From a virus: a DNA stretch of 54,703 nucleotides. The stretch spans positions 1 to 54,703 of IMG/VR virus record IMGVR_UViG_3300010331_000318; one strand, 5' to 3'. The notes under the pieces were generated by a model. The model was not told where the DNA came from. It did no database searches and was given only the letters and a program-made list of their open reading frames with translations. Within the stretch, counting starts at the first letter, position 1; each line of letters starts with the position of its first letter. Of this stretch, positions 6,698 to 49,856 are shown in pieces. A program made the translations under genes and the position numbers.

Positions 6698-6771
6698 GAA
6701 TGGATAGCTTAATTGGATAAAGCATTTTCCTATAAGATTATAAGATATGAGTTCAAATCTCATTCCGTTCT
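6698..6771 (+). tRNA. tRNA-like, probably Arg(CCT)-derived, degenerate anticodon arm
   Basis: Acceptor GAATGGA pairs with TCCGTTC (one G-U). The D-arm TAGCTTAATTGGATAAAGCA is very close to that of bacterial tRNA-Arg. The T-arm is ATGAG-TTCAAAT-CTCAT with a perfect stem. The anticodon arm does not fold into a normal 5-bp stem with a 7-base loop; TTCCTA fits a CCT anticodon preceded by U33, but the assignment is tentative. No CCA is encoded. Confidence 0.5.
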
Positions 6772-7209: not shown

Positions 7210-7262
7210 AATTCAGTTTATTTTATAGTAAATTGAATTGTGAGTATTCTTATTCACAGGAT

Positions 7263-7320
7263 AGAAGAGATTCATGGGTAGCTCCTATGGATTAGTGCGA
7301 GATCCCTCCTCGCCTCTTCT
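7263..7320 (+). ncRNA. Three-way-junction leader before the small terminase gene
   Basis: Outer stem AGAAGAG/CTCTTCT (7263-7269 with 7314-7320). Inner hairpins are CATGGG/CTCCTATG-type (7273-7278 with 7284-7289, one G-U) and GCGAG/CTCGC (7297-7301 with 7309-7313). A TTTTTA run follows, so it may also act as a terminator or attenuator. Confidence 0.55.
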
Positions 7321-7375
7321 GTTTTTATTAATTTGTGGGAGAAAATAAATTTGTAATGAAAGGATGTGAGATATA

Positions 7376-8233
7376 TTGATCAGTTCAAAGCAATGTATAT
7401 GTTGCCACAAAACTAAAAAAATGAGTAACTATTATACAAATAGAGATAATAAACAAGGATATTCTTATGATAACACTTGTAAGGAAGATTCTCGTAAAAT
7501 AAGTAAAGATTTATCAGGCTTAAAAGAGTATTGTAGTTTAAATGATAGAAAATTTCAACAGGAATTGGTAGATATAGCTACATTAGAAGCAACTAAAAAA
7601 TATGGTGATAATATAGATTACAATTCTCTCTCTGAAGATAAAAGGGAGTCTTTTTTATTTGAAAAGATAAGAAATATATATTTTCAAAGGATGGGTATAT
7701 CCCCTCATTATGAGTTTATTGGAAGTAATGAACCAGTATCTCTTATCGAAGAAGACTTAGACAATGATACTGATGAGGATTTAGAGCCCATTAAACAAGG
7801 TAAAGAGAAGAAAATTTGGTCGGAAATTTGGCAAGGAAACTATAGTAAATCAAATATTCAATGGTTAGATACATATTATTTTGATACCTGTAATGATTTC
7901 GTTGTAGTTAATCGTAATCATAAGGATTATGTCCGAAAAATTGCAAAAGCTAGTTTAGCTATGGATATTGCGTACAACGATATGATGAATGGAAATGCTG
8001 GTGGAGATAAAAGATACAAAGAAAATAAAGCGATTTTTGATAGTTTATCCCAAAGTGCCAAGCTAAGTGAGAAGACACGCGGACAAAATGATACTGCTGG
8101 CTTAGGCTCCCTCTCTGAGATAACAGCATGGTTAGAACAAAATGGTTTCCTACAGAAAAAAATTGTGTTTGAAGATGACGATATTAGTAAAATAAATAAA
8201 GACTTACGTCATGTTTTAAGCAGTTTGGATTAG
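7376..8233 (+). CDS. terS: Terminase small subunit (by position)
   Basis: 285 residues, TTG start with AAGGATGTGAG 6 bases upstream. The N-terminus has a CxxC pair (CICC, residues ~7-10) and further cysteine near 36, suggesting a zinc-binding element. The middle is helical with an acidic stretch (DLDNDTDEDLE, ~128-138). Position is the main evidence: it abuts the large terminase gene, whose ribosome binding site overlaps this stop codon. In that place the small subunit normally recognises phage DNA and hands it to the packaging motor. Sequence similarity to a specific TerS family was not recognised. Confidence 0.65.
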   Translation: MISSKQCICCHKTKKMSNYYTNRDNKQGYSYDNTCKEDSRKISKDLSGLKEYCSLNDRKFQQELVDIATLEATKKYGDNIDYNSLSEDKRESFLFEKIRNIYFQRMGISPHYEFIGSNEPVSLIEEDLDNDTDEDLEPIKQGKEKKIWSEIWQGNYSKSNIQWLDTYYFDTCNDFVVVNRNHKDYVRKIAKASLAMDIAYNDMMNGNAGGDKRYKENKAIFDSLSQSAKLSEKTRGQNDTAGLGSLSEITAWLEQNGFLQKKIVFEDDDISKINKDLRHVLSSLD

Positions 8234-8242
8234 GAGGATAAT

Positions 8243-10000
8243 ATGGCAACAAACTTTTCACATAAAAAAAATGCAAGTCAAAATCAAACTCAAATAAATG
8301 GAGATAGTCCAGATAGTCATTGCGTAGTAAAACAAGGTGGCGTTGAAAATCCAGAAATTTGGGAAAAGTTGGTATCATTTTATCGTCAGCACTTAGATAT
8401 TTTTATCGAGGAATATTTCTCATCTCCAGGTAAGCCAGTTTCGTTTAAAGATGTTCAAAAGATTGTCGTGAGAAATTGCGGGACATGTACAAATGTAATA
8501 GACATTGAGGCACGTTCATTTGGTAAGACATGGAAAATGGCATGGATATTAAGCGCATTGTCAATTTTATATTCAGACAACCGTTGTCTCGTGGTCTCCG
8601 GTAACGTAAATCAAGCAATGTTGGTGGCAAATTATATTAGAGATATCGCAGCTAAGAATGAAAATTTTGCGAGAGAAATAATCTTGCCTGTACGAATCAG
8701 TAAGGATGGAGCTACAATTAAGTTTAAAAATAACTCTACTATAATATGCAAAGCTATGGAAAAAGATGGGAAAAACATAGTCGGTTTGAGAGAGAAAATT
8801 ATATATATTGACGAAAGTTGGCTAATAAAGTCGACTGTAATTCAAAAGGCATTAAGACCAATGCTATCATATACAAGAGATGTTGCAAGAGAACAGAACT
8901 TTGAAGATTTCCCCAGCAAACTTTTTGAAACATCTAGTGCCTATCTCAAGACATGTGATTTATACAAAAGATTTACAGATACTATTGATGAAATGAAAAA
9001 GGGGAACATGAATAAGTTCGCATGTGCTTTAAGTTATGAAGCAGGAATTAGAACGGGTATTATAGAGAAAGGGTTTGTAGAAGAAGAAAAGGGAAATATG
9101 CTTGAAAGTATATTTGATATGGAATGGGGAGCAAAGTTTATTGGAAATCAAAATGGTTCATTTTTCCCATATGATATTACAGAACCCTCTAGAGATATGC
9201 CTTCTATAGAATTGAAACAGCCCTCTCATTCAAAATCTAGGTACATATTAAGTTTAGATGTGGCTACTTCTGAAGCAGATGGAGCAGATAATGCAAGTTT
9301 AATAGTAATTAAATTTATTGAAAAAAATGATGGAACCTTTCATAAATATGTTGTCTTTATAAGAACATTTCATGGATATCCTCCAGAAAAACTCGCAGAA
9401 GAGGTTAGAAAAGTTTGTCTTAGATTCCCTAATATAGAATCCACAATTATTGACGGAAATGCTATTGGGGAAGGAGTTGTAAGTTTATTAAACTTTCCTT
9501 ATGTAAGTGAAGGTGTAGAATATAAGCCATTTGTAAGAGATGATATTGGATACACCGGAAATAATGCTATTCCAATAGTTAGGGTTTTTCGTGGAAGCAA
9601 TACTATTAATAATAACATGGTTGTAAAAACTAAAATATATTTTGAAAATAAAACATTACATTTACCTATTCCATCTTCTGAAGCAAGGAGATATCAACAA
9701 GATTCTTTCGATGATTCAAAAAAAGCAGATAAATCAAAGCCAAGAGAATTGTTAATTGAAGAAATGGCGATATATTTTGAAGCTGATAAATTACAGTTTG
9801 AATTGTCAACTATAGTTCCTAAATTTACAGCAAAAGGAAATAGTTTTTATGATACTGCGTTGACAACTCAACACAAAGATCGTTGCTCATCACTTTGGAT
9901 GGCAATGGATTATATTTCCAAGTTAGAGGATGAAAACAGGGAAAACTATAATAATAATACGCAAGGAATGTGCATGGGAATTGCAATGAGTTTCAACTAA
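8243..10000 (+). CDS. terL: Terminase large subunit (packaging ATPase and nuclease)
   Basis: 585 residues. The ATPase half has a degenerate Walker A in RSFGKTWKMAW (residues ~91-101) and Walker B YIDES (~190-194) with the catalytic glutamate. The C-terminal half has an RNase H-like nuclease: LSLDVATSEADG (~334-345), the second aspartate in IIDGNAIGEG (~404-413) and an acidic DSFDDSKKAD segment near 490. It cuts and pumps concatemeric DNA into the prohead through the portal encoded next. The ribosome binding site AGGAGG overlaps the upstream stop, indicating tight coupling with the small subunit. Confidence 0.93.
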   Translation: MATNFSHKKNASQNQTQINGDSPDSHCVVKQGGVENPEIWEKLVSFYRQHLDIFIEEYFSSPGKPVSFKDVQKIVVRNCGTCTNVIDIEARSFGKTWKMAWILSALSILYSDNRCLVVSGNVNQAMLVANYIRDIAAKNENFAREIILPVRISKDGATIKFKNNSTIICKAMEKDGKNIVGLREKIIYIDESWLIKSTVIQKALRPMLSYTRDVAREQNFEDFPSKLFETSSAYLKTCDLYKRFTDTIDEMKKGNMNKFACALSYEAGIRTGIIEKGFVEEEKGNMLESIFDMEWGAKFIGNQNGSFFPYDITEPSRDMPSIELKQPSHSKSRYILSLDVATSEADGADNASLIVIKFIEKNDGTFHKYVVFIRTFHGYPPEKLAEEVRKVCLRFPNIESTIIDGNAIGEGVVSLLNFPYVSEGVEYKPFVRDDIGYTGNNAIPIVRVFRGSNTINNNMVVKTKIYFENKTLHLPIPSSEARRYQQDSFDDSKKADKSKPRELLIEEMAIYFEADKLQFELSTIVPKFTAKGNSFYDTALTTQHKDRCSSLWMAMDYISKLEDENRENYNNNTQGMCMGIAMSFN

Positions 10001-16237: not shown

Positions 16238-17446
16238 GTGAGCAGAACTCTAACTTATGAATTTGTAAAAAACTTTATTGAAATAGAAAGTGGAAGTGGT
16301 TGCAAATTAATAAGCACAGAATATGTTAATAATCACACTTTCTTAGATGTTCAATGTTCTTGTGGTAATACTTTTAATGTAGGTTATGATGCTTTTAGAA
16401 ATTGTAATGTAAGAAGATGTAAGGAATGCACAGAAGTAATTAGCAAACTTCCAAAAGTAAGAGAAACTTATGAAGATGTAAAAAAGTATATTGAAGCTAC
16501 TAGTAAAAGTAATTGTATTCTACTAACTAAAAAAGAGGATTATAAAACTAAAAGACAAAAGCTTGAATTACAATGTAGTTGTGGCAATCACTTTCAAACA
16601 GCTTTTCAAGACTTCAAAGCTAGAAATAAAAGGAAATGTAATGAATGTTCTTTTACAGAGAGATCTGAAGGGGCAAAACTTACATATGAAACAGTTAAAG
16701 AAGAGATTGAAGGGGAAAATGGGAACGGATGCAAGCTTCTCAGTACAGAATATGTTAACGCTCATACAAAGTTGAAAATACAATGTGCTTGTGGGGAAAT
16801 ATACGAATGTACTATAAATGATTTTAACACAACGAATCAGAAACAATGTAAAGCTTGTGGATATGCAAACGGTGGCTTTAAACATAGATGGACTATTGAG
16901 GAAATGGATATCTATGTTAAAGAAAATAGTGATTGCAAATTAGTTACTGCTATCTTAGGTGAGTATAAAGAACAAATTACATTTGAATGCAAGTGTGGGA
17001 AACTATTTTCTGAACAATTTTCATCTTTTGTTTCAGGAGGTAAATGTTGTCCAGCATGTAGCAGACTTAAATCATCTAAAGGAGAAATTGCAGTAAAACA
17101 ATATTTAGAAGATAATAATATTATTTTCACAGAGCAACATTCTTTTCCAGATTGTAAGCATCTTATTAGTTTACAATATGATTTTGCTATTTATGATGAC
17201 AACTCAATAATAATTTATCTCATTGAATATGATGGTTCATTACATTATACTACTACTGAATTTTTTGGTGGAGAAAAAAGATTATTGTTGCAACAAAAGA
17301 GAGACAGAATTAAAGACAAATATTGCATGGATAATAATATTCCATTAATTAGAATTCCATATTGGGATTTTGACAATATAAAATCTATTCTAGATAGGGA
17401 CATTTTACAAATAAAGGAGGCAGTTAATCATGTTATTGCTATCTGA
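16238..17446 (+). CDS. Putative homing nuclease with zinc-ribbon array (EDxHD-like), copy 3
   Basis: 402 residues, GTG start behind GGGAGAG; the overlapping ATG at 16236 reads into a stop. Four zinc ribbons (residues ~4-60, 75-130, 145-200 and 210-265) with CSCG/CKEC, CSCG/CNEC, CACG/CKAC and CKCG/CPAC pairs. The C-terminal nuclease has YDFAIYDD, IEYDGSLHY and RDRIKDKYC, closely matching copies 1 and 2. Unlike them it has no structured leader or terminator: it starts 16 bases after the previous gene, and its end overlaps the next start by 17 bases. It is therefore embedded in the head operon and likely depends on its transcription. Confidence 0.78.
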   Translation: MSRTLTYEFVKNFIEIESGSGCKLISTEYVNNHTFLDVQCSCGNTFNVGYDAFRNCNVRRCKECTEVISKLPKVRETYEDVKKYIEATSKSNCILLTKKEDYKTKRQKLELQCSCGNHFQTAFQDFKARNKRKCNECSFTERSEGAKLTYETVKEEIEGENGNGCKLLSTEYVNAHTKLKIQCACGEIYECTINDFNTTNQKQCKACGYANGGFKHRWTIEEMDIYVKENSDCKLVTAILGEYKEQITFECKCGKLFSEQFSSFVSGGKCCPACSRLKSSKGEIAVKQYLEDNNIIFTEQHSFPDCKHLISLQYDFAIYDDNSIIIYLIEYDGSLHYTTTEFFGGEKRLLLQQKRDRIKDKYCMDNNIPLIRIPYWDFDNIKSILDRDILQIKEAVNHVIAI

Positions 17447-20795: not shown

Positions 20796-22214
20796 ATGAT
20801 AATAACAGAGCACGTTGAAATAAATATAAGTCCTAGAAATGTTGAGTATTATGAAAATCTAGGATATAGAATAAATAAAATAGTGGGTTCTAAAGGAAAA
20901 TTAGTTTGTCCTAAAGGGACAACATTAATGGTGAATATAAAAGATTTATCTAAGGCATCCGGTGTAAAAGTTAACGTAAAATGTGATGGATGCGGAGATA
21001 TTCTTAAAAATATAGCATGGAGTGATTATACAAAGCAAGTCCACAAAGACAATACCTATTATTGTAATGTTTGTGCAACTAAGTTATATGCTGGTAAAAG
21101 AGCAATGAAATCCAAATTAGAAAATGGTGGCAAGAGTCTAGAAGATTGGTGCAATGAAAACGGAAGAAAAGATTTAATTGATAGATGGGATGAAAAACTT
21201 AATAAATATAAAATTAGTGAAATTAATTGCAGAACAGCAAAAAAGTATTATTTTAAATGTCCTATGGGTATCCATCCCAGTGAAAAGAAACATATTGCTA
21301 GCTTTACATTTGATAAAGGTAGTATGAATTGTAAAGCATGTAACAGTTTTGCTCAATGGGGAATTGATAATATATGTGAAGATTTCCTTGATAAGTATTG
21401 GAGTATTAAAAATACAATCAGTCCTTGGGAAATTGATTATTGTGGTTCAAATAATCCGATATATATTAAATGTCAAGATAAGGATTATCATGATGATTAT
21501 AAATCTTCCCCTTGTATATTTAATAAAGGATGTCGATGTCCCGGTTGTTCACATAAAGTTGGTCATTTGCATATTTTAGATTCACTTGGGACTTTATTTC
21601 CTCAAGTATTAGAATTATGGTCAGATAGAAATAAGAAATCACCATATGAATATTCACCAATGAATAATAATAAAATTTATTGGAAGTGCCCTTGCGGAAA
21701 ACATGGGGAACATTTCACGAAAATATATGATGCTAATAAATGTGATTTCCGATGTCCAGAATGTACACAAGAACGAAATGAAAGTCTTCTTCAAGAAAAG
21801 GTGCGACTATATTTAAATACATTTGATTATACAATATTGCATGAACATAGGTGTACTATTGTTCCTATAAATCCTAAAAGAAAGGGCACTAATAATACCT
21901 TGCCTTTTGATAATGAAGTATTAGAGTTAAAACTTTTATGTGAAGTAATGGGACAGCAACATTATAGAATAAATGGGTATCATATAATGCAAGCAAAAAC
22001 TAAAAACACTACACCAAAGCAAGAGTTACATTATACAAAATTAAAAGATAGATATAAACGGATATATTCTAAATCTAAAGGATATAATTATTTAGAAATA
22101 TCTTATAAAGCAGATAATAAAAGGGAAACATATAAATTATTAATAGATAATAAAATTGAACAAATATTAAAACAACAATTAAATAATAATTTGGTTTTAC
22201 AAGAAGCTATTTAA
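20796..22214 (+). CDS. Putative homing nuclease with DUF4379-like zinc modules, copy 4
   Basis: 472 residues. After an N-terminal ~100-residue zinc domain (CDGCG...CNVC) come DUF4379/PF14311-like treble-clef units with D-x-W/YW-S and C-x-x-C patterns (CPMG...CKAC, CQDK...CPGC, CPCG...CPEC). The C-terminal ~130 residues hold a divergent nuclease: LPFDNEVL, CEVMGQQHY and DRYKRIYSKSKGYN, recognisably the D...E-x-x-G-x-x-H...DxxK arrangement of the other copies. It sits between tail tube and tail chaperone genes with its own promoter, leader and terminator. The C-terminal residues QQLNNNLV are encoded by a copy of the intergenic motif. Confidence 0.75.
   Translation: MIITEHVEINISPRNVEYYENLGYRINKIVGSKGKLVCPKGTTLMVNIKDLSKASGVKVNVKCDGCGDILKNIAWSDYTKQVHKDNTYYCNVCATKLYAGKRAMKSKLENGGKSLEDWCNENGRKDLIDRWDEKLNKYKISEINCRTAKKYYFKCPMGIHPSEKKHIASFTFDKGSMNCKACNSFAQWGIDNICEDFLDKYWSIKNTISPWEIDYCGSNNPIYIKCQDKDYHDDYKSSPCIFNKGCRCPGCSHKVGHLHILDSLGTLFPQVLELWSDRNKKSPYEYSPMNNNKIYWKCPCGKHGEHFTKIYDANKCDFRCPECTQERNESLLQEKVRLYLNTFDYTILHEHRCTIVPINPKRKGTNNTLPFDNEVLELKLLCEVMGQQHYRINGYHIMQAKTKNTTPKQELHYTKLKDRYKRIYSKSKGYNYLEISYKADNKRETYKLLIDNKIEQILKQQLNNNLVLQEAI
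22171..22194 (+). repeat. Recurrent motif copy inside the 3' end of nuclease 4
   Basis: ACAATTAAATAATAATTTGG read in frame as QLNNNL. It forms a direct repeat with 20757-20778 around the gene. Confidence 0.75.
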
Positions 22215-23652: not shown

Positions 23653-23715
23653 GTGGCAACAGGAGGAGTTATAAACCTTTTGGAATGATAAGTTTTCACT
23701 CGCTTATCTTGCCAC
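23653..23715 (+). ncRNA. Structured leader of nuclease 5
   Basis: Outer stem GTGGCAA/TTGCCAC (23653-23659 with 23709-23715) and inner stem GATAAG/CTTATC (23687-23692 with 23703-23708). An AGGAGG inside the structure (23661-23666) is not followed by a useful start, so this element is probably a decoy or regulatory leader. Confidence 0.55.
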
Positions 23716-23762
23716 CTTATTTAATTTCGAGTGAAAATATAAAACTAGGAGTGAAATATAAT

Positions 23763-25097
23763 ATGTTAAAAGAACGAATTGTATGCAAGACAAACGAGGA
23801 ATTTTGGAAAGTGATAGAACCCTATTGGGATTATGAAAAGAATGAAAAACATTGGAGTGAGTATACTAAGGGAGCACATAAAAAAGTATGGATAAAATGC
23901 TTAGAAACAGATTATCATGAAAGCTATGAAATCAGTTGTAGCCACTTTTCAGAAGGTAAAAGATGTCCATGTTGTGTTGGACAAAAAGTTCATCCAAGAG
24001 ATTCATTTGCACAATATAATATAGACAACATAAATAAAGATTTTTTAGAAAAGTATTGGGATTGGGATAAAAATAATGAGTTAGGAAATAATCCATGGAA
24101 TATCACTGTGATGTCAACAAAAGATGTTTTTATATTTTGCCAAGACAACTCTTATCATGATAGTTATAAAATAGAACCTCGTCATTTTTCAAAAGGTTGT
24201 AGATGCCCCTTCTGTGCAGGTAAACAGGTTCATCCCAAAGATAGTCTTGCTCAATGGAGCATAGACAATTTAGGAGAAGATTTTTTAGATAAATATTGGT
24301 CAGATAAAAATACATTAAATCCTTGGAAAATAAGTTTAGGTTCAGATAAAAAGATATGGATTAAATGCCAAAACAAAGATTATCACGAGGATTATATCGT
24401 TGCTTGGTGGAATTTTAAAAACGGAACAAGATGTCCTTGTTGTAGCCATAATGTATTTAATGAAGGAGATAGCTTAGGTAGTTTACTTAAAGAAATAAAT
24501 TTATCATATATATATTCGGATAAGAATAAAAAATCTGCGCATGATGTTTCTCCAAGCTCAACTGAAATTTGTTGGTTTAAATGTCCAGATGGAAAACATG
24601 ATGATTTTGAAAGAAGCACTAACGGTTCAAAACATCGAGACTTTAGATGCCCCATATGTTCTACGGAGAGTAAAATTGGAGAAGGTAATTGTAGATGGAA
24701 TGGTGGAGTAAGCACTCTTTCTCAATATCTGCGTTCAAATATATTACAATGGAAAAAAGACTCCATTAAAGAGAGTTACTATAAATGTATTTTAAGTGGT
24801 AGTAGATTTAATGTAGTCCATCATTTATATGGATTTGATAAAATAATTCAAGAAACACTTAGTATAACCAATTTACCAATATATACTGAAATGAATATGT
24901 ATACTGAAATAGAAAGTGCTTTATTAGTAGATACTTGTACTAAATTGCATGCTAAATATGGATTGGGCGTTTGTTTGTCCAACGAGGTGCATGATAGATT
25001 TCATTTAGAATATGGATATGGGAAAAATACCCCAGAACAATTTGAAGAATTCAAACAAAATTACAAACAACAACTAAATAATAACTTAGTAAGTTAA
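23763..25097 (+). CDS. Putative HNH homing nuclease with DUF4379-like zinc modules, copy 5
   Basis: I start at ATG 23763, which has AGGAGTG 9 bases upstream; an earlier in-frame ATG (23685) lies inside the leader hairpin and lacks a site. 444 residues. Three or four DUF4379-like units repeat W-x-[IV]...C...DYH..Y......F..G.RCP-C-C (residues ~15-240). The C-terminal ~130 residues differ from copies 1-4. They carry FNVVHHLYGF, LHAKYGLG and LSNEVHDRFHLEYGYGKNT, the conserved pattern of a phage HNH endonuclease. It lies directly upstream of the intron-bearing tape measure gene. It ends with QQLNNNLVS, encoded by the recurrent motif, and its stop overlaps a terminator. Confidence 0.75.
   Translation: MLKERIVCKTNEEFWKVIEPYWDYEKNEKHWSEYTKGAHKKVWIKCLETDYHESYEISCSHFSEGKRCPCCVGQKVHPRDSFAQYNIDNINKDFLEKYWDWDKNNELGNNPWNITVMSTKDVFIFCQDNSYHDSYKIEPRHFSKGCRCPFCAGKQVHPKDSLAQWSIDNLGEDFLDKYWSDKNTLNPWKISLGSDKKIWIKCQNKDYHEDYIVAWWNFKNGTRCPCCSHNVFNEGDSLGSLLKEINLSYIYSDKNKKSAHDVSPSSTEICWFKCPDGKHDDFERSTNGSKHRDFRCPICSTESKIGEGNCRWNGGVSTLSQYLRSNILQWKKDSIKESYYKCILSGSRFNVVHHLYGFDKIIQETLSITNLPIYTEMNMYTEIESALLVDTCTKLHAKYGLGVCLSNEVHDRFHLEYGYGKNTPEQFEEFKQNYKQQLNNNLVS
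25068..25088 (+). repeat. Recurrent motif copy inside the 3' end of nuclease 5
   Basis: ACAACTAAATAATAACTTAG, read in frame as QLNNNLV. It forms direct repeats with the upstream copies at 23549-23577 and 23616-23644. Confidence 0.75.
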
Positions 25098-25150: not shown

Positions 25151-28100
25151 ATGGCAATAGGACAGGGAAAATTGGTCGGAGAGCTCCAATTAGGACTTTC
25201 CACTCTCAAAAAAAATATTAATGACGCTAATAAAATATTACAAACTATTGATATGTCAAAGATTAATGTTGATATTATTACTACTAAACAAGCTACCACT
25301 GCAATAAATACATTGAAATTAATTAAAAAAGAATTAGATAGTATGGGTAATACAAATATAACTACGACTAAAATAGATGACTTTGTAAAGAATTTAACGG
25401 CAGCTCTTATGAAAGTAAGTTCAGAAATCACAAAGACAACTACTAAAACTATAACCGATACTGCAAATGCAATAGACAAAACTGTAAAGATGGTAGAATC
25501 CGTTAATGCAGCAGGTAAAAAATTAACTACTAATAATACCACTAATAATAAAACAGGCAATACTGTAACAACTACAGCTAATACAACTGATTATAAACAA
25601 CAGGCAAAAGATTTAGATGCTTTGGCCAACTCTATAAATAGACAGTCTGAAGCACAAAAGAAAAATGCTGGGCAAAATACAACTTTGTATAATGCTGGAT
25701 ATAAATCTCAATTAGACGGAATTAATCAATCTTATTTAACTTTAAACTCATCAGAGAAAGCTAGAATATCTGACTTAAATGCTCTTGCAAGTAAATCAAC
25801 AGCATTAATATCCTCGTTAGGATTAGAAGGTACTGCTAGAATGCAAGCCACCTCACAAGCCAAGAAATATACAGATGAGGCTAAAAGAGTTCAATTGGCT
25901 ATTGACCAAGAGGTTAAATCTAGGCAGGATGTAACGGCTAAAATTATAGCAGCAAATGAAAAACAAGCATTATCCGCACTAAAACTTTACACTCAAGAAA
26001 AAGCAAGTAGCCAAGAATACGATAAAATGAGTAAAGAATTATCTAAAATATCTGGGGAATCTCAATTAGCGATGGGTTCAGGAAACATAAACAACAGCCT
26101 TATGGATCGTGCAAAAATTTCCGGAGCCTACGCCTTCGCCGCAGCAAATATATATTTATTAACAAGTTCTATAAAAGAACTAATTACGACAAATTCCTCG
26201 TACGAAGTTTCGCTTAATAATTTGTCCAGAACCCTTGAAAATGTGACAAATAATGATTTAAAAGAATATGGAAAACAAGCTGTGGCATATTCTAAAGACT
26301 TTGGTCAACCATTGCAAGAAGTCCAAACTGCTATGACAGAGTTAGCTCGTGCAGGAATAAGTAGCAAGTCAGATTTAACGGGTATGTCAAAGTCAGTTAT
26401 GTTAGGTTTGAATACTACAGAAATAGCCTCAGCAACAGAAATGACCGGCTACTTAGTTTCGGCCGTCAAGCAGCTAGGCATGAGTTTTCAAGACTCAGAA
26501 AAGATTATAGATGGATGGAATAAACTAGGTGATAAATATGCAGTAAAATCAAATGACATGGCAGAGGCAATGCAAAGAGCTGGGTCGAGCTCAAAAAACC
26601 TAGGAATTGACCTTAATAATTTGAACGCAATTACTGTGGTGATCGGTGAGGCGACACAAAAAAGTGGTTCTGAAATTGGAAATGCTATCAAAACTATGGA
26701 AACTAGACTTTTAAGACCTGAAACAATCAGTGTATTGGAAAGTTATGGAATTACAGTTATGAAAGATGCTGAACATTTCAACACATTTAAAGACATAATG
26801 ACAAGTACAAACATAGCATTAGATAAGTTTGGAGAAGGAACAAAATCTTCAAATGATATTCTAGATGCAATGGGTGGAGTAACCTTAAAGCTCCCTATAT
26901 TTGTAAAAAGTATAGACCGATAGTTTAACCTATCAAAACTCCTTTAACTGCTGGAAGTCCCTAAAGTCTGATTAACCACAACGTAAGAATGAAATATGTC
27001 TAAGCGTGATGGTGATGAAAGTAGAAAAAATAATCAGAATGGCATATGGTTAAATCCTAAGTGCTACTAAACAATGGGTAATCAGCAAGTAAGACTCGAA
27101 CAGAGTAAACTTCAACGACTAGAGAGAAATCTCGTACCTACAAGCGTAGGGAAATGGGGAGAATCCTATCTAATAAATAGGATTGTGATATAGTCTGTTC
27201 TCATATAAAAGTATGAGAAGTTCATTGTAATTTATTACATGAGAACTGTATGAAAACTAGCGATTTCATATGAACATCAAGCATGGAGAAAGAACGACAT
27301 CTCGATTTTGGCCAAGGGCTGGGGAGAAATAGATGCAATAGCAAAAGAAAGTGCAGACTCAGTAGGTTACTCTGCAAAGGAAAACGTGAAGGCTATGCAA
27401 ACATTTTCTAAACAAGTTGAGGTTTTTAAATCTTCAATCAAAGAACTTTATATTAGCGTCGGTGAGGCAGGACTTATGACAACTTTGAAAGGCGTAGCAA
27501 ATGGAGCAACATCAATTGCACAAGCTCTTTCTAAAGCAGATCCAGGAATGAAAAAATGGTTATTTACACTACTTGAAGTTGGAGTTGTAATGAAGTCATT
27601 TTCTTCAGCATCTAAAATATTTACAGGATTAAATTTCACACAATTCCTAGATAAAACAGGAATTAATGGATTATCTGCTCTTACTGGAGGATACCAAAAA
27701 TCTACAACCGCAGCAAAGGCTTATCAAGTAGCATCTGCAAGTTTATCGGCTCAAGTTGCAGCAGGAAATATAACCGCAACAGAATCTGCTGGTATATTAC
27801 AAGTAGTTGGGACTAAACTTGGACTTGCTTCTACTAGTACTAACGTTTTAAGTGCTGCACAAACTGGACTTCAGAGTAGCCTTGCAAGAGGAATTGCATT
27901 AGAAAGCAGTTTGAATGCACAAGTTACTGCTGGTACTTTATCTGCACAAGGTAGAAAGGCTGAATTATTACAACGTATGTTTTCAGAAAAAGAATTGCAA
28001 GGACAATTAGCATCAGGGATAATAACACAAGAAGAATATAACCTAGCATTAAGAAGACGTTCAATATATGAAGCTGGAGTACAAGGACAAGTTGCTGCTG

Positions 28101-31100
28101 GAACAATAACACAAGCACAAGCAGATGGTTTATTAAAACAGAAAATTATCACACAAGAACAATACAATATAGTAATAGCTCAAACAAGCGCAAGTTTAAA
28201 TGTTTCTACTGCAAGTACAGCAGGACAAACCGCTAGTAATGAAGCTCTTAACGCTTCTCAGAAAGCTGTAACCGCTGGTGCATGGGTTATGAAAGCTGCA
28301 ATGTTAGCAGGAGTTCTTATTCTAACGGTTGGAATTACCGCAATAATAAAAATGGTTCAAGCACAAAAGAATGCAGTTCAAGATATGCAATCTGCCTTAG
28401 ATACTATAAATAATAAAACTAGTTCAATAGATGGTTTAATAACAGAGCATGAAGAATTAGCTAAGAAAACTAGTCTTACTGCTGAAGAAACCAAACGTTA
28501 TGGAGAAGTTGTAAAACAATTAAACAAACTATTACCTGATTCTTCTTCTATTATAAGAGATCAAACTTTATCTATAGAGGAACAAACCTCAGCAATGAAG
28601 AAAAATAATGCTGAATTAGATAAAGCAGCTACAAAGAAATCAATTGACGATGCAGCAGGCAATTATGATAAATCGAAAGGAAATATTACAAAGCAAGAAG
28701 ACATTTATGATAGTGCTTCAGAAGTTTCAAAAGGTAAGGGAGTAGATTATGAAAAGGCATATGCTTCTAAAAAAGCAGAATTTCTTGCAGGTATGGGTGT
28801 TCAAGCTGAGCTTACAAAAGAAGATTTAGCATCAATAGATAGTTTTGTAATTTCAGAGGCTAATAAAACAAGAGATACAGCTTATAATAGTATGACAAAA
28901 TCGAAAGAAATTGTTGCTGTTTACTCTGCATGGTTTAAAAAATTAGCAGAAGATGGAGTAGTTGCAGCAGGAATTACTGGAACTGTAGCAACAAATATAA
29001 TAAATTCTTTTGATAAAATGGGAGAGTCCGGAGGAATTAATAAAGATAAAATTATTAGTTATTCAGATTCGCTAGTGGAGTTAGGCAAGGAAGATATATT
29101 TAAACAATTTTCAAAATCAGTGGACGAGTTTAATAAAAAAACCAGTCATACTCCAGGAGAAATTGATAAGCAAAAAGTAGCTCTGTCTTCTTTGTTAGCG
29201 AGTCAAAAGAACTCAATGCCAACAACAGAATATGAATTGTTTAGTAAAATTCTAGCAGAAACATTAAGCACTATGGGAATAGCAACTGAAAAAGCTACAA
29301 TAAAAGCTAAAACCCTAGCAGACGTAATGACCACAGTAACTAAAGCAATGGAAACAACTACTCCTATCGTATCCTCAATCAACACAATCCTAGAAAAACA
29401 TGCAGAAACTAACGAATGGGATACAGCATCAATCCTAAAACTTGCATCAACTTATCCTTCCCTTCTCGCAGTTATGAACGATGATAAACTCCTTGCACAA
29501 GAATTAACAAAAATAAAAGGAGATAATATTGTAACTGTTCAGAAAGCAGCAAAGGATGAATTACAAGTAACCGCAGATAAAATTAAGAAAATAGCTGGAG
29601 CTTACCTTACAGATATTGCTAATTTTAAAACTGCAATAGATGCTAAAAATGCATACTTAATGGCATATGCTGCTAACTTAGATATAATCCAAAAGAAATT
29701 TGAAACTCTTGGTAAAGCTAGTGGAGCCACAGACGAAGAATCATATTACTTAGGTAAGAAAGCTAGTTTAGCATCTCAAGCTAGTAGTGGTGGAGCAGGA
29801 GAAACTGTAAAATCAATTGATGATTACTTTAAATTAAAGAATATAATTACTTCTGTAGATACTTCTCTTCAAGATGTTGGTAAATCTAAAGAAAAAGTAA
29901 CAAAAGGTACTAAAGCTCTCACAGATGCAAATAAACAAGCCACTAATGCAATAAACGATCAAAAACAGGCCATCAAGGAATTAGATAATCAACTTAAACT
30001 TCTTGCAATATCTCAATCTAAGCTTGCACCAAACTCTGATGCATATATCGCCGGATTAGATAAAGAAGCAATTCTTATCAAAAAGAAAATTACCCTAACT
30101 CAACAATCCATAAAAACTAATGAAGCAAATGTTAAATCAATGTTATCTGTAGAATCTGCTACAAATAAATCTTCTAAATCTACTATGACATCGAATACAT
30201 CTTCAGGAAATTATGCTGGTGGATATGCAAATGGTAAATATAAAGATTGGATAAATCAATCTGGTTCTAAATATGGAATAGATCCTAATCTAATAGCTGG
30301 AATTATTCAGACAGAATCAAGTTTTAATCCCTTAGCTAGAAATTCTAAATCTGGTGCAACTGGACTTGGACAATTCCTTTATAGTACAGCAAAAGAAGAA
30401 GGTTTATCTGATAGAACTGATGCTAAATCATCTATAGACGCAATTGCTAAATATCTTGTTAAACGTATCTCATGGGCTGGTGGAGATGTAGAAAAAGCTA
30501 TTATGGGATATGGCGAAGGAACTCGATCTTATTTAAATAAAGTAAAGAACAATACTCCAGGAGGAAAATCAAGCTTTACATCATCAACAGGAGAATCCAC
30601 AACAGATAATGGTTCCGATAAACTCAAAGCTCAAATTGAACAAGATAAAGCTGATATAGCTGATTGGGAAGAAAAGTTAGCAGGATTTGCATATCAAAAA
30701 TTCAACATTAGAGTAGCACAATATGATGATAAAATTGCAGAATATGAAAGTAAAAACGATATTTTGTCAAGTCAAGCAGAAATAACAGATGATGATTTAA
30801 AACGAAAAGGATACGAAAAAGAAATTGTATCTAATCTCAATAAAGAATTAGACATTAAAAAACAAGAAATCAAACTTGTAGAAGATGGATTAAAAAGTGG
30901 TAAATATACAAAAGCACAATTACAAGAAATGATTATCTTGAAATCTAAATTATTAAAAATGGAATTAGACACAACTCTTGCACTTAAAACTCAAGCAAAA
31001 GAGAGAGTAACTTCGCTTTTAGAATCTAGAAGAGTTAGCGATGAAATAGCCTTAAAACAGCAACAAGACAATGAGAAAAACAAATTAGCATCTTCAATTT

Positions 31101-32395
31101 ATGGTGGAGTACCAAGTAAAACTATCACTGTAAATACAGAAATTGACAAAGAAATGTTACAAAAGAAATACTCGGATTTAGACATAACTGTTAAAGCAGG
31201 TGCTGGTGAAACTGGTGCTAATAGAAATGATACATTAGCATTAAACGAAAAGAAACTTGCAATGAAATCAGCAGAAGATTCAATTAAAATTTATGATAAA
31301 GAAAATCAAAAACAACAAGATGCAATTCAGACACAAATTGACAATCTAAATACTGTAAATGATATTAATAAAGAAATTGAAGATAGATTAAAAAATCAGA
31401 ATGACTTAATAGAAAAACAAACTGCATTACAAAATACACTAAAAGAAAAAAATGTTATGCAAATAAAACAAGGTGCAGATGGGAAATTTACAAAAGAATA
31501 TATTGCAGATCCTAAAGCAATTGAATCCGCACAAAAAGCCTTAAATGACCAAGTTAAATCTAATGCAGATTTTGAGAAATCTATAGCACTAAAACATCAA
31601 ACTGATTCTCTTAATGCGTTAAAAAAATCACTAGCAGATGAAAAAACTGCAAAAGATTTAGCATATTCTGAAAAACTTGTAACACTTGAAAAAGATCAAC
31701 TTATAGAAACTAATCTTCTAACTCTCCATTATGCAGATATGAATCTCCTTGCGGATACTTCATTAAAATTATTAAAGAAAACGTATGGAGATAATTGGGT
31801 TGAAATAATAAAACAACTTACAACAGATGTAGATTCTGCTAAATCATTACAAGATTCTCTCCTATTATCACAAGCAAATGGTACTTTATCTTCCACTGTA
31901 AAAGGAACTACAGGAGTTGGTAACTCAGCTTCTATTACAGTAAACACAGAGGTTGATAAAGCAATGCTACAAGCAAAGTATGGTAGTGGAGTTAATATTA
32001 CAGTGTCTAAAGGTGGAGGGGCTACAGGCTCTGATAGGGCTGCTACATTATTACTTAATGAAAAGATATTATCAGGCAAAGGGGTTGTTCCTAAATTTGC
32101 AAGTGGTGGAGAAGTAGGTTCATTTAGTGGTAATAGATTAGCTATGGTAGATACAAAAGAAAGAGTATTATCATCAACTCAAACTCAAGATTTCGGACAA
32201 CTTGTATCTTATCTTCCCTCTGCTTTAATTTCTATGGAAAATATTATGGACAAAATAAATATGAGCAATACATCTGGTCATAATAATCAATCTGTGGTTG
32301 CACCAATTATTCATAATTATCATATTGATAAAGTGGTGGCAAATAATGTAGATGAATTTATAAGTAGTTTTAAAACAAAAGTTGCTTTAGTCTAA
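25151..32395 (+). CDS. Tail tape measure protein, split by a group I intron, with lytic transglycosylase domain
   Basis: Exon 1 is 25151-26900 and exon 2 is 27282-32395; joined they give 6,864 bases, 2,287 residues plus stop, in frame. The N-terminal third has the conserved tape measure core; across the junction the spliced reading aligns with the usual layout of that family without a gap (LPIS from exon 1 into WRKND and LAKGW of exon 2). A hydrophobic segment lies at ~917-945 (MLAGVLILTVGITAIIKMV). An SLT-type transglycosylase domain is at ~1575-1665 (LIAGIIQTESSFNP, GATGLGQF, IMGYGEG). Two related blocks of ~45 residues, TVNTEIDK and TVNTEVDK, begin near 1866 and 2137. The protein sets tail length, forms a conduit at infection and probably opens peptidoglycan. 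At about 0.15 nm per residue the tail would be ~340 nm. Splicing is inferred, not shown. Confidence 0.87.
26901..27281 (+). ncRNA. Group I self-splicing intron (381 nt, no ORF) in the tape measure gene
   Basis: Conserved core elements in order: a P-like sequence ATGGGTAATCAGCA (~27074-27087), R-like TTCAACGACTAGAG (~27112-27125) and S-like GATATAGTCTG (~27189-27199); the GACTA/TAGTC pairing is P7. The P1 helix pairs exon end CTATAT (26895-26900) with internal guide GTATAG (26910-26915), giving a U-G pair at the 5' splice site, as group I introns require. The intron would end with G27281. P9-like hairpins such as TTCTCAT/ATGAGAA and TATGAAA/TTTCATA lie near the 3' end. It looks like the IA-type introns of Firmicute phages. 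No endonuclease is encoded inside it. Confidence 0.88.
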
Positions 32396-48101: not shown

Positions 48102-49775
48102 TCAACCTTTATCGGAAATTCCTTCAACTTGAAAAACAACTTTAAACCGTTCCTTTTTATAAGTACAGTGTGTATTGTCATTAGTATTTGGAACGGTATT
48201 TTCTAACGGAATATCAATCTGTTCTAAAGGTAATATTAGGTTTAAATTATGTTCATTACTAATAACTAAAGATACTTCAATTGTGCCATCAGGATATATC
48301 ATTATACTTTTTATCAGTGTCTTTAATGCTTCATTAGTATATTCTCCTTCTTCAATAATATTACTCATATTATCAAAATATTTCTTAACAATACTTTCTA
48401 TGTTTAAGGTTATTTCATTAGCATTATTTACAGCATGAATACTAATTTTGTGTATAGAGATTTGGTCATTAATACCTTTTGTATAATCTTTTAATTCTTC
48501 CATTTCTATAATCTCATTTTGAAACATTTCCATATATTTCTGTTTTTGTTTCATAAGTGAATCCAATTCCACTTGAATATCTTTCTGATTATTTATAGTT
48601 CCTTTATTTTTTTCTTTAATTATTTCTTTAAGTCTAGCGGAAACCCCTTTGATAATTTTAGTTTTATTTTTAAACATTTGTTGTATAAGCAATTTTATAT
48701 AATCTTCTAATTCTTCCTCATCAATAATTACTTTATTGCAACAAGCATCTTTTCCCATAGAATTTCTTAAACTATCAACCCATCTTTTATATGTTTTTCC
48801 ATCTGTAGAATATTTCCTTTGCATACGTCTAAAAGCATATCCACATTCTGAACATCGAATCAAGTTACTTAATGGATATTTTGTACTTTCTTTTTTATTC
48901 ATCATATGAAACGTATCTCTTCTACCTTCAAGAATATCTTGAGCTCTATTGAACATAATATCATCTATAATTCTAAATTGAGGTCTGTCTATTATAATCT
49001 GATTTTCCAATGGAATTGATTCTCTAGTACCTGTAATAAAATCTACAACTTGAGATTGCTTATTTACAACTTTACCTACATATAATCTATTCCTAAGAAT
49101 TTGACATACAACGACCTGGTGCCATTGTGATTTTTTAGTCCTCTTAGTAATAACTTTTAGATCATTTAATACTCCAGCTATCTTTCCACTTCCATAGCCT
49201 TCATTTACAAATAAGTCGAATATTTTCTCAACTATAATTTTTTCTTCTTCATTAATAGTAAGAGTATAGTTGTCCACTTTATCATATCCAAATACAAAGT
49301 TAGGGACTCTTCCCTTTTTAGCAGTTATATCTTTACCAAATTTCACTCTCTCACTTAATTTAGACGATTCCTCCTGGGCGAGTGATGCAAGAATTGTTAA
49401 GTAAACTTCTGAAGTCTCTTGTAATTTCATCCCTTGATTTACAAAGTTGATGTCGCAATTATATTTTTTTAGCTTCCTTATAACTTGCAAAAAATCTAAA
49501 GTATTCCTTGCTAGACGACTGATATCCTTGACTAAGATCAAACTGAATTTACCTAATCGAGCATCCACAATCATTTGTTGAAACTCAACTCTATTTTTAA
49601 GTTGCTTACCAGATATCCCTTCATCAGCATAAATCTTAACTAATTCATAATCATGTTGCTTAGCTATATCTTCAAAGAATTCATGTTGTTTACTTAAACT
49701 TGCAATCTGTTCTTCCTTATCTGTACTTACTCTTATATAGCAAGCTATTTTAATTCTTTCTAATTTCTTCTCCAT
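48102..49775 (-). CDS. Large serine recombinase (phage integrase type)
   Basis: 557 residues. I start at ATG 49775, 10 bases after AAGGGGA on the minus strand; the in-frame GTG 9 bases earlier touches that site. The N-terminal resolvase domain (residues ~5-150) has the nucleophile in YIRVSTDKEEQ, then VKDISRLARN and LASLAQEES. The recombinase domain (~165-280) includes VFGYDK and ILRNRLYVGKV. A zinc ribbon follows (CSECGYAF...CCNK, ~308-345), then a coiled coil (~385-450). It would carry out attP-attB integration. No attachment core could be identified, because the other end of the element is not in the window. Confidence 0.93.
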   Translation of the reverse strand: MEKKLERIKIACYIRVSTDKEEQIASLSKQHEFFEDIAKQHDYELVKIYADEGISGKQLKNRVEFQQMIVDARLGKFSLILVKDISRLARNTLDFLQVIRKLKKYNCDINFVNQGMKLQETSEVYLTILASLAQEESSKLSERVKFGKDITAKKGRVPNFVFGYDKVDNYTLTINEEEKIIVEKIFDLFVNEGYGSGKIAGVLNDLKVITKRTKKSQWHQVVVCQILRNRLYVGKVVNKQSQVVDFITGTRESIPLENQIIIDRPQFRIIDDIMFNRAQDILEGRRDTFHMMNKKESTKYPLSNLIRCSECGYAFRRMQRKYSTDGKTYKRWVDSLRNSMGKDACCNKVIIDEEELEDYIKLLIQQMFKNKTKIIKGVSARLKEIIKEKNKGTINNQKDIQVELDSLMKQKQKYMEMFQNEIIEMEELKDYTKGINDQISIHKISIHAVNNANEITLNIESIVKKYFDNMSNIIEEGEYTNEALKTLIKSIMIYPDGTIEVSLVISNEHNLNLILPLEQIDIPLENTVPNTNDNTHCTYKKERFKVVFQVEGISDKG

Positions 49776-49856
49776 TGTATGCACATCCCCTTTGGACTTT
49801 TTATCTGACCGTTCCTTATTAATTTAAATCATTCTATGTTGATTATATCATATATA

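Follow-up and report, generated by a model that had tools for sequence, protein, structure and literature searches.

The tail tape measure gene of the window (the whole 54,703-nt stretch of viral DNA analyzed here) is interrupted by a 402-nt insert (26880 to 27281, plus strand), which its sequence identifies as a group I intron bearing the extra IA2-type elements that IStrons have. We consider it very likely that this insert derives from an IStron, lacks TnpB and transposase, splices after G26879, ligating GGAG to CATGG to give a 2,280-residue protein, and is probably immobile. Tape measure genes with introns have been described before (ICP1, PMC10448857); what is new here is the proposed IStron descent, the boundary after a G and the lost transposon, rather than the type of host gene.

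The gene belongs to the TP901-type tape measure class. In the ORF list of the window its frame starts at 25151 and stops at 26921-26923, and the same protein resumes from 27282, downstream of the stop. The 5′ exon (25151 to 26879, plus strand, last bases ...GGTGGAG) matches PF10145 (PhageMin_Tail, 85.8 bits) and aligns to two intron-less relatives, L006 and L007, while the 3′ exon (27282 to 32395, plus strand) includes a transglycosylase SLT domain (PF01464, 67.3 bits); phrog_4211 is matched on both sides of the insert, and TIGR01760 spans the junction. Because a second, near-identical contig shows 100% identity to the window across the 8.3 kb compared, sequencing error is an unlikely source of the interruption. 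The ORF list contains no ORF of at least 80 aa inside the insert, so we rejected an intron with a homing-endonuclease ORF. These results agree with the preliminary description, which had placed an ORF-less group I intron in this gene, with the tape measure frame stopping at 26921-26923 and continuing downstream. Intron-like breaks in the tape measure gene are likewise present in ICP1, where splicing was shown by RNA-seq and RT-PCR (PMC10448857), and in Thomasclavelia phage TR-TP1, but both of these carry an HNH endonuclease gene, unlike the window intron. An insertion shared with TR-TP1 was rejected, as the sequence at the break differs.

The boundaries of the insert are established by comparison with the two intron-less relatives, whose proteins are 82% (L006) and 81% (L007) identical. 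Their empty sites read ...GATGCGATGGGAGGAG^CATGGAGAAAG in L006 and ...GGCGGCG^CCTGGAGAAAA in L007 (^ denotes the insertion point), and in the window 402 bases separate ...GGTGGAG from CATGGAGAAAG. Because both empty sites read through the GGAG^CATGG position as GG-A-WRKND, the insert is assigned to 26880-27281, with the terminal intron base, G27281, taken from the empty sites; these ends also agree with those of L001, L013, L030 and the IStron copies compared pairwise. The insert is thus 21 nt longer than the 26901-27281 previously proposed, and a counterpart of the additional bases (26880-26900) is missing in both relatives. Joining 26879 to 27282 gives 2,280 aa across DAMGGAWRKND, with GG-A-WRKND exactly as in L006 and L007. 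The earlier join of 26900 to 27282 does give the 2,287 aa claimed for it, but it adds seven residues (VTLKLPIS replacing A, junction peptide DAMGGVTLKLPISWRKND) within a conserved stretch. It also lowers the TIGR01760 score from 126.6 to 115.9 bits and PHROG scores in seven of eight cases, one of the seven only slightly; phrog_5448 goes the other way, with 40.5 bits for the 26900 join versus 33.6 bits for the 26879 join. Because AG is repeated at the two ends of the insert, the position of the cut is uncertain and may be up to two bases earlier, leaving the joined sequence and its product unchanged.

We found strong support for a group I core within this insert. Searched alone, an 800-base region matched the full RF00028 (Intron_gpI) model over 26891-27217 with 57.8 bits (E 5.7e-14), above the gathering cut-off of 50 bits, the outcome anticipated when this covariance search was first suggested. 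The match was missed in whole-window scans, as well as in a record-level search of the near-identical contig. Since the region alone passes the gathering score, with the speed filters failing, such whole-window and whole-record negatives carry little weight for these introns. The same limit applies to an Rfam scan of the window for other group I introns at E 0.1, which returned two tRNAs only and missed the 26880-27281 intron too. Separately, a tRNA gene at 6698-6771, beside tRNA-Thr, has an anticodon that is ambiguous in ARAGORN.

The intron RNA folds better than 100 of 100 shuffles (z -3.4), and a consensus fold of 27 relatives contains 95 pairs, 69 of them with a compensating change, supporting P3 to P9.2. 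The Rfam alignment and the consensus fold together place the predicted catalytic core at 26939 to 27184 (plus strand, as are all elements given here), comprising P3 (26939-26944 with 27156-27161), P4 (26949-26954 with 27082-27087), P5 and P6, the 5′ strand of P7 (27117-27121, pairing with 27191-27195), P7.1 (27122-27133), P7.2 (27137-27150) and P8 (27162-27184). From the 3′ strand of P7 the intron runs to its 3′ end GAACATCAAG (27191 to 27281), through P9 (27200-27217), P9.1 (27219-27247) and P9.2 (27248-27271). A P3-P8 core with the guanosine site in P7 is therefore predicted, together with the P7.1/P7.2 and P9.1/P9.2 extensions that are IA2-like, as in IStrons; the group I core motifs quoted earlier were all located in the sequence. 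This completeness bears on whether the intron is instead degraded and no longer splices, leaving a broken gene and either a defective phage or two tail proteins. The loss of the element's mobile parts would fit such decay, yet P1 to P9.2 all pair, both exons remain long open frames free of additional stops, and the second contig is identical over the 8.3 kb compared, so that we regard a dead intron as extremely improbable.

We next consider the kinship of this intron, which had gone unnoticed when it was described as an ORF-less group I intron, a designation that otherwise holds. A pattern of the P1-P2 region retrieved 8 viral contigs and 51 genome contigs whose titles name Clostridium and related Firmicutes, while a looser pattern brought mostly unrelated sequence, L097 excepted. 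The elements fall into two types. Targets of the AG type read GGAG in 24 of 24 cases; copies start GGAG^CAAC, with the window's GGAG^TAAC among the 24, and end AGAACCAG^. GG-type copies start G[AG]GG^TAAC (28 of 28) and end GCAACGG^. Dispersed IStron copies in Clostridia show both layouts, and TnpB is carried by many of the copies. Four AG-type IStrons (L046, L058, L074 and L076) lie in one Clostridium genome, where their downstream ORFs were unmatched to a single TnpB query, and a further AG-type IStron lies in a dUTPase-like gene around position 9956 of viral contig L032.

The window intron shares several features with the published group B IStrons BcISt1, CbISt and CsISt1 (Tourasse 2014, PMC4227781). 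These are IA2-type introns inserted after an exon ending in G, with a shifted U.G pair and with P7.1/P7.2 and P9.1/P9.2; CsISt1 is an AG variant that inserts after AG and ends in CAG (PMC4227781). In the window we likewise find a G-ending site, a matching dinucleotide at both ends (GGAG^...AAG^) and a P1 with U.G shifted by one base. Group B IStrons, however, are 482-2582 nt long, with an IS607/TnpB component and AT-rich ends, whereas the window intron is 402 nt, has neither and lies in a phage tail gene. Another parallel is the Turicibacter group IA2 intron (Tourasse 2014), which has no IS part, a G-ending site and a relationship to group B IStrons, but its site, GGAGG, is of the GG type, whereas that of the window is of the AG type. 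In a core-sequence tree, the window intron is placed by its sequence inside the AG-type IStron clade (support 95/99 with 15 rows, 100/99 with 18 rows), next to L013 on a branch with support of only 83/88.

Together with these relatives, the window allows P1 to be reassigned. Its predicted 5′ strand combines exon GGAG with intron base U1 (26876 to 26880), pairing with the internal guide sequence GCUCC (26890 to 26894) and including U26880.G26890. The equivalent pairing is present in 52 of 52 related elements: exon positions -4 to -1 and intron base 1 form 260 of 260 pairs with the guide, compared with a mean of 234 and a maximum of 245 in 1000 shuffles, counts that reflect few independent events, as the pattern varies mainly between two subfamilies and part of the guide (CTCCC) belonged to the search pattern that gathered the elements. 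Pairing at intron base 1 is U.G, U-A or C-G; AG-type elements have C-G there in 23 of 24 cases, and the window intron alone has U.G. The last exon base is G26879 rather than the usual U, with U.G one base into the intron. This missing exon U does not exclude group I membership, because group B IStrons show the same published exception: RT-PCR showed that BcISt1 splices after G, and its U.G was placed one base into the intron (Tourasse 2014, PMC4227781).

The hairpin read as P1 both by the preliminary description and by the Rfam model corresponds by comparative evidence to P2 (26895 to 26915). It contains a GUAAA loop and U26900.G26910, the pair formerly taken as the splice site. An ordinary group I intron cut after U26900, with CUAUAU/GUAUAG as P1 and seven extra residues in a 2,287-aa protein, has some appeal in that the hairpin is perfect, includes a U.G pair and is where Rfam puts P1, and the reading frame alone permits it, the 21 disputed bases being open in frame within the window. 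Both strands of this hairpin, however, belong to the mobile insert, and it is kept, including its U.G, whatever the host gene (portal, tail tube or chromosomal). Conservation of the U.G was first seen in loci found by a pattern requiring it, but it is also kept in copies found by the core alone, in genomes chosen with the U.G-requiring pattern. The stem covaries among 27 sequences. GNRA-like loops on P2 dock on P8 in known group I structure, and the GUAAA loop is probably the usual L2-P8 docking loop. Moreover, in the tail-tube gene of Alicyclobacillus phage KKP_3916 and in the portal gene of L013, an in-frame stop lies between GGAG and the P2 U, which makes a splice site at this U very unlikely in either. 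Given these stops, the empty sites and the mostly lower family scores, we rejected a 5′ splice site at 26900: that reading is highly improbable, and the earlier splice site and P1 are very probably wrong.

Relatives of the intron in other phage genes support the boundary after GGAG. In three empty-site sets (tape measure, L006 and L007; tail tube, KKP_3916 versus L022-L024; portal, L013 versus L025), the insert begins directly after GGAG and ends in AG. In KKP_3916, whose record has no intron annotation, comparison with L022-L024 and the frame place the start after GGAG and the end before CTAACCGT, and the joined exons read GGQGANRLLTWDYGR. For L013, the intron-less L025 gives GAAGGAG^TTCGCGTG, encoding PEGVRVLTVPF. 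The L030 relative, in a tail-tube gene, follows GGAGG and ends in CGG, with GG bounding it on both sides, and its joined exons give a tail-tube protein. Like the window intron, those of KKP_3916 and L030 have a short 5′ loop and no ORF and are inserted in a phage tail gene after GGAG or GGAGG, but they occupy another gene and site and branch outside the AG-type IStron clade. Short forms therefore either have several origins or are old.

Relatives of the window intron lie close to a shared GG motif in three distinct tail-tube genes of phages (L001, L030 and L097), suggesting that this motif is a favored landing place. On the reverse strand of viral contig L097, around the match at 7225-7640, a tail-tube-like gene seems to carry two consecutive group I introns with an exon of only some 25 bases between them.

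The transposon parts of an IStron are absent from the insert as judged by its sequence. The insert has no ORF of at least 80 aa; OrfB_IS605 had no match in the record, and the 126-kb near-copy contig contained neither a Cas12f1-like_TNB (TnpB) match nor a second intron copy. No IS607-type transposase was found in either sequence: the window yielded a single serine recombinase, a large integrase of the phage type, and in the near-copy contig Resolvase matched just one frame, which is 573 aa long. The large serine recombinase of the window (48102-49784; Resolvase, Recombinase and Zn ribbon) suggests a temperate phage. The AT-rich transposon ends are missing as well: the 5′ arm of the window intron is 11 nt, compared with 49-87 nt in nearly all IStron-type copies, and the long right end is missing from its 3′ end, GAACATCAAG. 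L013 shows an intermediate arrangement, keeping the long left arm but having no ORF or IS gene and sharing the 3′ end of the window. Most simply, an IStron would first have lost its right part and genes and then its left end, leaving an intron that can probably no longer transpose.

Most likely, self-splicing from the tape measure mRNA would start with guanosine attack after G26879, within a P1 formed by GGAG and U26880 with GCUCC; in the second step the intron would be released at G27281 and GGAG joined to CATGG, producing one restored tape measure protein. As we infer from the DNA, this would be a plain intron, the intron half of a clostridial IStron with its GGAG target and AG at both ends, that has shed the TnpB/transposase cargo and both AT-rich ends and probably still splices. 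Tail assembly most likely depends on splicing by this ribozyme. This would be a clear example of an intron-transposon hybrid pared down to a plain intron in an essential phage gene, with intermediate states kept in relatives such as L013. It also carries a warning, in that the Rfam model and the eye both mistake P2 for P1 here, giving wrong junctions and wrong predicted proteins. AG-type elements offer a natural test of 5′ splice-site choice by group I introns without U.G at the cut. More tentatively, phages may have made plain introns of IStrons repeatedly, by shedding the transposon half, and the AG-type branch may splice with a P1 lacking U.G both at the splice site and beside it. If so, such a P1 would represent an exception in nature to the U.G rule of 5′ splice-site choice, and the conserved U.G of P2 might serve as an alternative cleavage or circularization site.

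Mobility by collaborative homing, rather than transposition, with a free-standing HNH-type gene at 23685-25097 is a further and rather unlikely scenario. The gene is absent at the equivalent place in intron-less L007, and ORF-less introns are known to occur beside free-standing endonucleases (Bonocora & Shub 2009 and Zeng et al. 2009, as cited in PMC10448857). Proximity and this absence make homing aided by the neighboring gene possible, with the L006-like empty site GGAGCATGG as a putative target of its protein. The comparison covers only three phages, however, each with related HNH-type genes at other positions, and the nearest relatives of the intron are IStrons at unrelated sites. Within the window, three HNH/homing-endonuclease-like genes lie amid the structural genes (16238-17446, 20796-22214 and 23685-25097), the last just upstream of the tape measure gene and flanked by similar AT-rich repeats.
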